DNA from: Anoxybacteroides tepidamans
GTDB lineage: Bacteria > Bacillota > Bacilli > Bacillales > Anoxybacillaceae
Direction: 5' to 3'
NCBI RefSeq assembly: GCF_014201465.1
Contig: NZ_JACHEP010000021.1
Coordinates: 1-53,792, forward strand
DNA: 53,792 nt
Under the pieces are notes generated by a model. The model was not told where the DNA came from. It worked only from the letters and a program-made list of their open reading frames with translations, and ran no database searches. The position numbers were made by a program, and so were the translations under genes. Below are positions 10,432 to 53,508 of this stretch, in pieces. Every line of letters starts with the position of its first letter. The first letter of the stretch is position 1.

Positions 10432-11376
10432 CTAGTCATCTTTGCGTAAGCCTAACCCTAACTCCTCAAGTTTCGCTTTTACTTCCTCCAAGGATTTTCG
10501 GCCTAGGTTACGCACTTTCATCATATCTTCTTCCGTTTTTTGTGCAAGTTCTTGGACGGTATTAATTCCCGCGCGTTTTAAGCAGTTGTAGGAACGGACA
10601 GACAGATCGAGTTCTTCGATCGTCATTTCGAGCACTTTTTCTTTTTGGTCTTCTTCTTTTTCAACCATGATTTCCGCGTTTTGCGCTTCATCTGTAAGAC
10701 CAACAAAAATGTTTAAGTGCTCTGTTAAAATTTTCGCACCAAGAGAAACTGCTTCTTTTGGACCAATACTTCCATCTGTCCATACATCAAGCGTTAACTT
10801 GTCATAGTTCGTGACTTGGCCGACACGAGTATTTTCCACTTGATAAGCTACGCGCGATACCGGTGTATAAATCGAATCGATAGGGATAACACCTATTGGC
10901 TGATCCTCGCGTTTATTGGCATCAGCTGGAGCATACCCACGTCCACGTTTTGCCGTCATTCTCATGCGAAGGTGGCCGCCTTCAGCTAGCGTAGCAATAT
11001 GAAGGTCCGGATTCAATATTTCAACATCGCTGTCGTGAGTAATATCAGCAGCCGTGACAACTCCTTCACCCTGTACATCAATTTCAAGCGTCTTTTCTTC
11101 GTCAGAGTAAATTTTTAACGCAAGCTTTTTCACGTTTAAAATAATTGCTGTCACATCTTCTACGACGCCTTCAATTGTTGAGAACTCATGCAGTACACCA
11201 TCTATTTGAATAGATGTCACAGCGGCACCAGGGAGTGATTATAATAGGATACGACGTAAGGAGTTTCCCAAAGTTGTTCCTTATCCTCGCTCAAGTGGTT
11301 CAACGACGTATTTGCCATATTTGGCATCTTCGCTGATTTCAACCGTCTCGATTTTTGGCTTTTCGATTTCGATCAT
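10432..11376 (-). pseudogene. rpoA: RNA polymerase alpha subunit with two in-frame stop codons
   Basis: The frame from ATG 11374-11376 to the stop at 10432 covers exactly 314 codons, the length of B. subtilis RpoA, and the residues match the family throughout: [10 protein letters not shown] at the start, the dimerisation region, then the C-terminal domain [19 protein letters not shown] and the end GLGLRKDD. Codon 32, expected Tyr, is TAA (11281-11283). Codon 46, expected Ser, is TAA (11239-11241). Each differs from a sense codon by one C-to-A change on the coding strand. AGGAGGG precedes the ATG, so the start is normal. Internal restart (for example at GTG 11220) would remove residues needed for alpha dimerisation and polymerase assembly. 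No other damage is visible. Since the gene is essential, sequence errors are the simplest reading; a true lesion would require a second rpoA or suppression. Confidence 0.93.
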
Positions 11377-51334: not shown

Positions 51335-51955
51335 TTATTTATGTCTTAACGCATATTCAAGCGCTTCTGCAACGTGAGAAACACCGATCACTTCCACTCC
51401 TTTTGGGATATTCCATCCCCCAAGATTGTTTTTAGGGATGATCACGCGCTGGAAACCGAGTTTTACTGCTTCTTGCACACGCTGTTCAATGCGGGAAACA
51501 CGGCGCACTTCCCCTGTTAGTCCTACCTCACCAATGATCACATCAGATGGGTTGGTTGGCTGATCGCGAAAACTAGAAGCAATGCTCACAGCAACCGCCA
51601 AATCAATGGCCGGCTCGTCTAATTTGACACCGCCTGCTACTTTTAAATAAGCATCTTGATTTTGCAGAAGCAAGCCGACCCGCTTTTCAAGTACAGCCAT
51701 CAATAAAGACACGCGGTTATGGTCAATTCCTGTGGCCATTCTTCGAGGGTTCCCGAAACTCGTCGGCGAAATCAACGCTTGAATTTCCACCAATACGGGT
51801 CTCGTTCCTTCCATCGAAGCCACAACCGTCGATCCAGCTACTCCACTTGACCGTTCTTCTAGAAACACTTCCGAAGGATTTTCAACTTCCAGTAACCCAG
51901 ATTCCCTCATTTCGAAAATACCGATCTCATTGGTCGACCCAAATCGATTTTTCTT
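51335..51955 (-). pseudogene. radA: RadA (Sms), C-terminal half only
   Basis: The 204-residue match starts at the KNRFG motif (about 51937-51952) and runs to the normal C-terminus, covering the Lon-like domain of this DNA recombination and repair helicase. The zinc finger and the Walker A ATPase core, about the first 250 residues, are missing. Upstream of the K of KNRFG the sequence diverges completely (residues MNIRLCK are not RadA), and no ribosome binding site precedes that ATG, so the fragment is probably not expressed as a functional protein. The break marks the edge of the accessory segment to the right. Confidence 0.93.
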
Positions 51956-52641
51956 ACATAACCTAATGTTCATTTTTTAAATCTTCACTCATTTTTAGAC
52001 GATTGACTTAAACAAACAACCAAATGTTGTTAAACAATTAAATGAACGATATGTTAAAAAACAAAAATTTATTACCGTATTATATGTAGTGAAAATCAAG
52101 AAATGTGGATGTCTTTTCTAATTATGCAATTGATAACTCAGAGACACAAATTATTGTTTTAGACGATAAACAACCACCACTTTAACCAAGTAATGTTAAA
52201 TAATTCAACAAACAATCTGATATTTAAATGAACTAACAATAATATTATGAAGAAACACAGGAAAATTATTAAAAACAAAGCAATTTATTACGTAAACCAA
52301 TTAATAGTTAGACGAACAAAAACACTAAAAAGAATGATACACTCTTCATCACATTGCACAAAATCCTCTTCGCTTTTAAAGATATTTAATACTTCTAAAA
52401 AGAGTGAACCCAGTATATACTGTTCCCTTATGTTTGCCAAGGGGCTAAATTAGGACTAGTTATTTACATCAAATAAAGTGCTGTTTTTTTAATTCGCCTC
52501 CAATTTCAATATCCCTCCCCAAACAAAGTTTCCATAATGTAGAATTTAATGTTGAAAATTGTTAATTTTTGTTGTTTGATATTAATGTACCTGAAACAAC
52601 AAATTCACATAAAGAGAGATAGAACTGGGGAGAGGAATGAA
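51956..52641. other. AT-rich accessory segment without a clear gene
   Basis: Base composition drops sharply at the radA break. No credible gene is seen on either strand up to the NYN gene. The first 350 bases hold short repeats: TTAGACGA at 51995, 52159 and 52308, and two pairs of ATGTT or ATATT units spaced 27 bp apart (52024 and 52051; 52193 and 52220). TTAAATGAAC occurs in both pairs. It could be the end region of an inserted element. Confidence 0.5.
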
Positions 52642-53508
52642 ATGACAAATACAGCTATATACATCGATTATGACAATGTGTTTATTACACTTGACCGATA
52701 TTATAAAAAATATGATACCTTAAACATTCAACAGGATTTTATTCAAAAGTTCTTCGCAAAATTTTCTAGCGACAATGTATTACATTCAAGGGCATACTTA
52801 AATTTTCATAATATTAGCTTAACGGATGAATTATTTAATGAGTTTAGGAAAAATATGGTTCAGTTATACCACATTCATTCTGGAAACAATACCTCTGATG
52901 TTCAGTTAATTATAGATGTAATAAAAAGCCTATATGATCCCAATGTCAAAATTGATAAATATATTATCGTTTCATCAGACAGTGATATGATACCTCTCAT
53001 TAATGAGTTAAAAATAAATGGAAAAGAATATGAAATTTATTATTTCGCATTCAATACCAACTTAGACTATCAAGACTATTTACAAGACACAAATTCAAAA
53101 TTTACCACCATTGAAAGCATCCTTGGCTTAGAAGTATATTCAAGAGAAAATGAAAGTAAATTCGATGATACTGAATACCTAAAAGGTATATTGACTTTTA
53201 TCAATAACTTAATAAACAAAACATATACAACATACTTAAAGGTAGACAATGGTGAAATTATTTCTGCTGGAGCTACACATAAAGGTCTTTTAAGGGATTA
53301 TCTAGAGCAAAATAATGTCTTTGTTCGAGAAGATTTAAAAAGTGGTTTCGCAATAGATACACTATTTAAAAAAGGTATTCTTTATGAATACGAACTATCT
53401 AATGGGTTCAAGGCAATTTTGATAAACGAAACAATTATTAACAGTAAAGGCATTACTTTAAATAACATTAAAAAAGAATCAGATTTTAAATTTCCAATTA
53501 CCGTTTGA
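52642..53508 (+). CDS. NYN-domain protein, putative ribonuclease
   Basis: 288 aa. The N-terminal NYN (LabA/limkain-type, PIN-like) domain shows the acidic residues: Asp9 and Asp11 in YIDYDNV, Asp86 and Asp92 in NTSDVQLIIDV, and Asp113 and Asp115 in SSDSDMIPL. Proteins of this type are metal-dependent RNases or regulators of RNA. The C-terminal part (about 205-288) has a winged-helix-like look but matches nothing I recognise. ATG 52642 follows GGGGAGAGG at normal spacing; the longer frame to 52549 lacks a site. It lies alone in an AT-rich accessory segment and reads against the surrounding housekeeping genes. A defence role is conceivable but unproven. It is not the Rae1-type NYN protein encoded at 43281. 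Confidence 0.85.
   Translation: MTNTAIYIDYDNVFITLDRYYKKYDTLNIQQDFIQKFFAKFSSDNVLHSRAYLNFHNISLTDELFNEFRKNMVQLYHIHSGNNTSDVQLIIDVIKSLYDPNVKIDKYIIVSSDSDMIPLINELKINGKEYEIYYFAFNTNLDYQDYLQDTNSKFTTIESILGLEVYSRENESKFDDTEYLKGILTFINNLINKTYTTYLKVDNGEIISAGATHKGLLRDYLEQNNVFVREDLKSGFAIDTLFKKGILYEYELSNGFKAILINETIINSKGITLNNIKKESDFKFPITV

Follow-up and report, generated by a model that had tools for sequence, protein, structure and literature searches.

Why does the gene for the RNA polymerase alpha subunit (rpoA), an essential gene, read with two in-frame TAA codons in this draft genome of Anoxybacteroides tepidamans? The gene lies in the window, by which we mean the whole 53,792-nucleotide stretch of DNA analysed; it is contig C21 of a 54-contig, 3.39-Mb genome (G000) that is 99.99% complete, and it carries clusters of ribosomal-protein and RNA polymerase genes. 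We hold with high confidence that the two TAA codons arose as base-calling or consensus errors of the assembly and are an artefact, not a trait of the organism.

An otherwise open rpoA frame

The gene is positioned between rpsK and rplQ within the ribosomal-protein cluster (Table 1). Reading of the frame bore out the initial annotation on the length of the gene, on TAA at codons 32 and 46 with 42 bases between them, and on the remainder of the frame, which is open with no further internal stop. Pfam matches on the open part (10432-11220) are to PF01000, PF01193 and PF03118, and the nearest named relative of this RpoA is that of Anoxybacillus rupiensis (97% over the 262 open residues). Translation restarting at 11220, the next listed start codon past the second stop, would yield 262 residues, in which the match to the Pfam dimerisation domain begins no earlier than position 30 of 74; it is improbable that such a protein would replace alpha.

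Table 1. Coordinates of the features discussed, in window positions.
Feature	Position	Strand	Description
rpoA (RNA polymerase alpha subunit)	10432..11376	-	314 codons + stop; two in-frame TAA
TAA, codon 32	11281..11283	-	Tyr in relatives; TAT in 78/80 named loci, 2 unread there
TAA, codon 46	11239..11241	-	Ser in relatives; TCN in 79/80 named loci, 1 partly unread
Probable error cluster	11239..11309	+	7 differences vs two nearest relatives, both stops inside; all purine to T on + strand
Approximate shared dropout	11233..11322		rpoA codons about 19-48; 10-N gaps, contig ends and error-laden edges elsewhere

The bases that the stops replace differ from what was first proposed. Each stop had been described as a single C-to-A change. 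At codon 32, 101 of 109 other rpoA loci have TAT (a set that includes two genomes twice, and in which the remaining 8 are unread or damaged at this codon), so that the difference there is T/A; both nearest relatives (L083, L084) have TCC at codon 46, so that two bases differ. TAA is found at codon 32 or 46 in none of the 109 other loci.

If the stops were real, the cell would have to read TAA as sense in rpoA, by a suppressor tRNA or by leaky termination. The locus resembles known cases of stop-codon recoding and nonsense suppression in having in-frame stops in an essential gene, here one that is otherwise open and has no second copy in the assembly. It differs from them in that no decoding tRNA was found, genes of the window usually end in TAA, and the relatives carry sense codons at these places. 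The anticodon tta is present in 0 of 59 tRNA genes called by ARAGORN in 11 stretches with 60 Rfam tRNA hits, a search in which one Rfam hit at the edge of contig C36 was uncalled and a tRNA in an assembly gap would be missed. In the window, 45 of the 50 genes checked end in TAA, and rpoA alone among the 50 has internal stops. Moreover, the stops are accompanied by further differences in the same direction, as described below.

The second biological reading is that rpoA here has become a pseudogene, its function supplied by another copy, which could be missing from a draft of 54 contigs. No second rpoA was found in that draft, which has a single PF01000 match at its near-total completeness, and the gene keeps its place in the ribosomal-protein cluster with its frame otherwise open. 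Given the lack of a TAA-reading tRNA among those called, the single rpoA and the absence of TAA from the 109 loci, we assign both read-through and a pseudogene a negligible probability.

A different gene of the window is also broken. The window's radA (51335-51973, minus strand) comprises the C-terminal half only, and the N-terminal half lies on contig C24 (G000:C24:5554-14512, L176), where three large ORFs come next (441, 908 and 594 aa, the 441-aa ORF with a PF00589 match below the Pfam cut-off), together with a 230-aa ORF and another radA, this one separate and full-length. The arrangement resembles what we take to be a Tn554-like three-recombinase element, and it looks as if such an element interrupts the gene while supplying a copy of its own. 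Past the interrupted end of radA in the window, an ORF at 52549-53508 (plus strand) contains an NYN domain (PF01936, 64.3 bits) and may be cargo at the other end of this element.

A one-directional cluster of differences around the stops

The initial annotation was right about the two stops and missed both the wider damage, seven bases in one direction, and its recurrence elsewhere. The two nearest relatives used for comparison, G001 and G006 (95% and 93% identity in the part of rpoA queried), differ from the window at identical positions (11239, 11240, 11266, 11278, 11281, 11287 and 11309) within a stretch of 71 bases, and at each of them the window has A on the coding strand. A short stretch of one-directional difference is what an artefact would be expected to leave, and here 7 of 7 differences in 71 bases run from purine to T on the plus strand.

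This direction is uncommon in the surrounding DNA. Between 9900 and 22000, purine-to-T differences account for 60 of 699 (G001) and 89 of 1,095 (G006), or 8-10%, with the seven included, and in rpoA outside the cluster most differences are transitions (34/46 for G001, 53/68 for G006). A scan for consecutive purine-to-T or pyrimidine-to-A differences from G006 revealed no other run of at least five in 50,367 aligned bases; across 6,959 differences there is the run of seven at rpoA and otherwise just two runs of four. In the corresponding scan against G001 (19,756 aligned bases, 2,088 differences), the rpoA run is the only one of at least four.

The changed bases are also mostly at conserved positions. 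Five of the seven are absent from all 36 intact reference relatives. Among the 109 loci, every readable row has T at gene positions 68 and 96, and position 90 holds either T or C; at position 137, 107 of the 109 have C and one has A, the error-laden L103 (codon 46 AAC). At gene positions 99, 111 and 138, A occurs in 10, 3 and 2 of the 109 loci, the first two being the cluster bases at 11278 (10/109) and 11266 (3/109), and the bases at these three positions could individually be natural. The density of differences in the cluster (7/71) is modestly higher than in the rest of rpoA (46/874, G001; binomial 0.08), and the argument for error rests accordingly on direction and conservation, not on density.

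Recurrent gaps at the same codons in other assemblies

A 330-base query from the 5′ part of rpoA meets a gap or a split in 9 of the 41 family genomes (G002, G003, G004, G005, G008, G010, G011, G014 and G044), as against 1 of 41 (G005) in which a control query of equal length at the rpoA 3′ end is missing. This recurrence of trouble at one stretch, 9/41 assemblies versus 1/41 at the control, is again what an artefact would be expected to give. The break in G005 may be plain fragmentation, since its 3′ control is missing too.

The dropout takes two forms. Ten Ns are found at the place in six records (L002; L004; L085, from G002; L095, from G004; L100, from G008; L103, from G010), which we count as four genomes, L002 and L095 being one and L004 and L100 another; the rpoA gap is thus present in A. 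rupiensis DSM 17127 (L002) and A. mongoliensis DSM 19169 (L004). In the ~19-kb stretches around rpoA in G002, G004 and G008, it is the sole run of Ns. Contigs end at the dropout in G003, G005, G011, G014, G044 and L027. Unread bases at gene nucleotides 55-150 are present in 3 of 80 named loci (L002, L004, L027) and at control nucleotides 605-700 in 0 of 80; among the 30 loci of the first relatives search the corresponding numbers are 6 and 0. A pattern from the rpoA 3′ end matched in 193 of 199 order-level genomes and is not counted as evidence, and an apparent stop at codon 135 in L034 and L050 is an alignment slip, both rpoA frames being open.

L027 (1-40) is from Cytobacillus oceanisediminis CGMCC 1.10115, a member of another genus, and its contig ends at these rpoA codons. 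From this locus, the dropout may extend past the family.

Contig ends that gather at one place look repeat-like, and a mobile element in the relatives' rpoA could break their assemblies, the differences in the window then being its scar. The edges themselves speak against an insert, and we find this account scarcely credible. By eye, the ends in G003, G005, G011 and G014 run at most two to three bases past the gene match; the pieces from both sides of the Ns in G010 overlap on the same codons, which makes an insert unlikely; and in G008 (L004/L100) 28 gene bases are unread at the ten Ns, with intact gene on both sides. A search for a plasmid as the source of a matching contaminant returned five records, the best 90.8% identical, and gave no lead.

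The edges of the gaps carry a signature like that of the window. We denote as private those bases near a gap that are present in none of the 36 intact relatives (a test of length and motif admitted 36 of 93 candidate loci). Pieces that enter the gap in rightward reading have T at 12 of their 14 private bases (G010, 6/7; G014, 5/6; G011, 1/1), and those read in the leftward direction have A on the coding strand at 30 of 45, which is T in the reading direction (G000, 5/5; G010, 16/22; G014, 3/3; G044, 6/9; G002, 0/6), the edge bases being compared position by position without gaps, such that the far ends of the G010 and G044 right pieces may be shifted. The right edge of G002 and the single private base of L027, which is not T, are exceptions to the signature; the tally omits L027 as well as G003 and the left piece of G044 (start motif unmatched). 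The G005 left and G011 right edges have no private bases.

Bases at the rpoA gap edges are probably wrong in L103 (2280-2590, G010), L115 and L116 (G014) and L169 (G044), and L103 has a stop at codon 45 inside its error-laden edge. RpoA entries derived from the G010, G014 and G044 drafts are probably wrong or absent.

On the Illumina platform, miscalls to T increase late in reads (PMC2745764). The likeness to the edges described here is in wrong calls to T in the reading direction, which in that source replace first G and later A and C (PMC2745764). The difference is that the source covers early Genome Analyzer chemistry (PMC2745764), and the platform may differ here.

Origin of the dropout and its meaning

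Base errors, perhaps where coverage is low, had been favoured from the start over two genuine nonsense mutations, and support for them now comes from the one-directional cluster, the gaps and contig ends elsewhere, the single rpoA and the failure to find a TAA-reading tRNA. As we reconstruct it, reads around rpoA codons 19-48 would have been few and poor and mostly of one direction, that of the window's plus strand, and the consensus would have taken wrong T calls, which become A on the coding strand and twice complete a TAA. In the related drafts, the identical dropout would have led the assembler to leave a 10-N gap or to end the contig. The simplest reading, we infer, is that the place is covered in the present assembly only by poor reads of the plus direction. 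The good reads may have been removed by the read cleaning of one pipeline, through either an artefact k-mer filter or a host-read mapping filter.

The affected genomes are unevenly distributed among assembly types. With assemblies grouped by contig number, a grouping chosen after the data were seen, the damage is present in 9 of the 10 that have 20-60 contigs (G000 among them), in 1 of the 13 with a higher number, and in none of the 18 with 1-5 (Fisher test of 9/10 vs 1/13, p = 1.1e-4; leaving out G000 and G005, p = 4.4e-5). The contrast of 9/10 with 1/31 gives p = 2.8e-7, and as 18 of the 31 have 1-5 contigs the 13 other drafts are the fairer comparison. Genus partly confounds this association with assembly type, since 5 of the 12 many-contig drafts that are intact belong to the more distant genus g4, and the division has an exception on each side: G019 (60 contigs) is intact at rpoA and G005 (350 contigs) is broken. 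Among the named records, four have titles in what we take to be the JGI style (Ga numbers, DRAFT scaffolds), and three of these (L002, L004, L027) are broken and one (L039) intact, as against 0 of 76 others broken.

PMC5322786 describes a JGI procedure that cleans reads before SPAdes assembly: a BBDuk filter takes out those matching artefacts, and BBMap to masked human, cat and dog references takes out those with identity above 95%. The likeness to such a pipeline is that, were only error-rich reads to survive the filter, the outcome would be a local gap or a consensus rich in errors. A ~150-base read with seven errors is near 95% identity, by our own arithmetic close to the filter limit, and an accidental match of the filter to a conserved rpoA stretch would leave only error-rich reads, which is how most edges look. 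The difference is that the passage of this genome through the pipeline, and a match of rpoA to a filter reference, are assumptions only.

Alternatively, the stretch could be physically hard to sequence because of structure, modification or breakage; the stops would still be errors, and this account competes only with the proposed cause. As hard-to-sequence DNA would predict, several species share a failure at one short stretch, and in G010 and G014 its edges are laden with errors on either side. Single-strand folding predicted for this stretch in G001 is ordinary (z 0.07, -0.57), and G001 (180 contigs), which belongs to the window's own genus and differs from the window there only at the listed bases, is unbroken, like 11 further drafts of more than 60 contigs. 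Set against these observations, a physical cause is unlikely; the narrower proposal that cells or DNA of thermophilic Bacillaceae are refractory to sequencing, through a site-specific break, adduct or modification at the rpoA start, is considerably less likely again. Among the literature matches listed, no report of such an rpoA dropout was found in the portions of text available.

rpoA is almost certainly intact in the strain, and the two stops have no biological import. Absence, truncation or a "pseudogene" label of rpoA in these drafts should not be taken as gene loss. Of wider interest is the breakage of a core gene at one spot across a batch of drafts: if a read filter is the cause, other assemblies may be damaged by it too, and if the DNA were refractory, the shared dropout would be a trace of biology in these organisms, even with both stops being errors.
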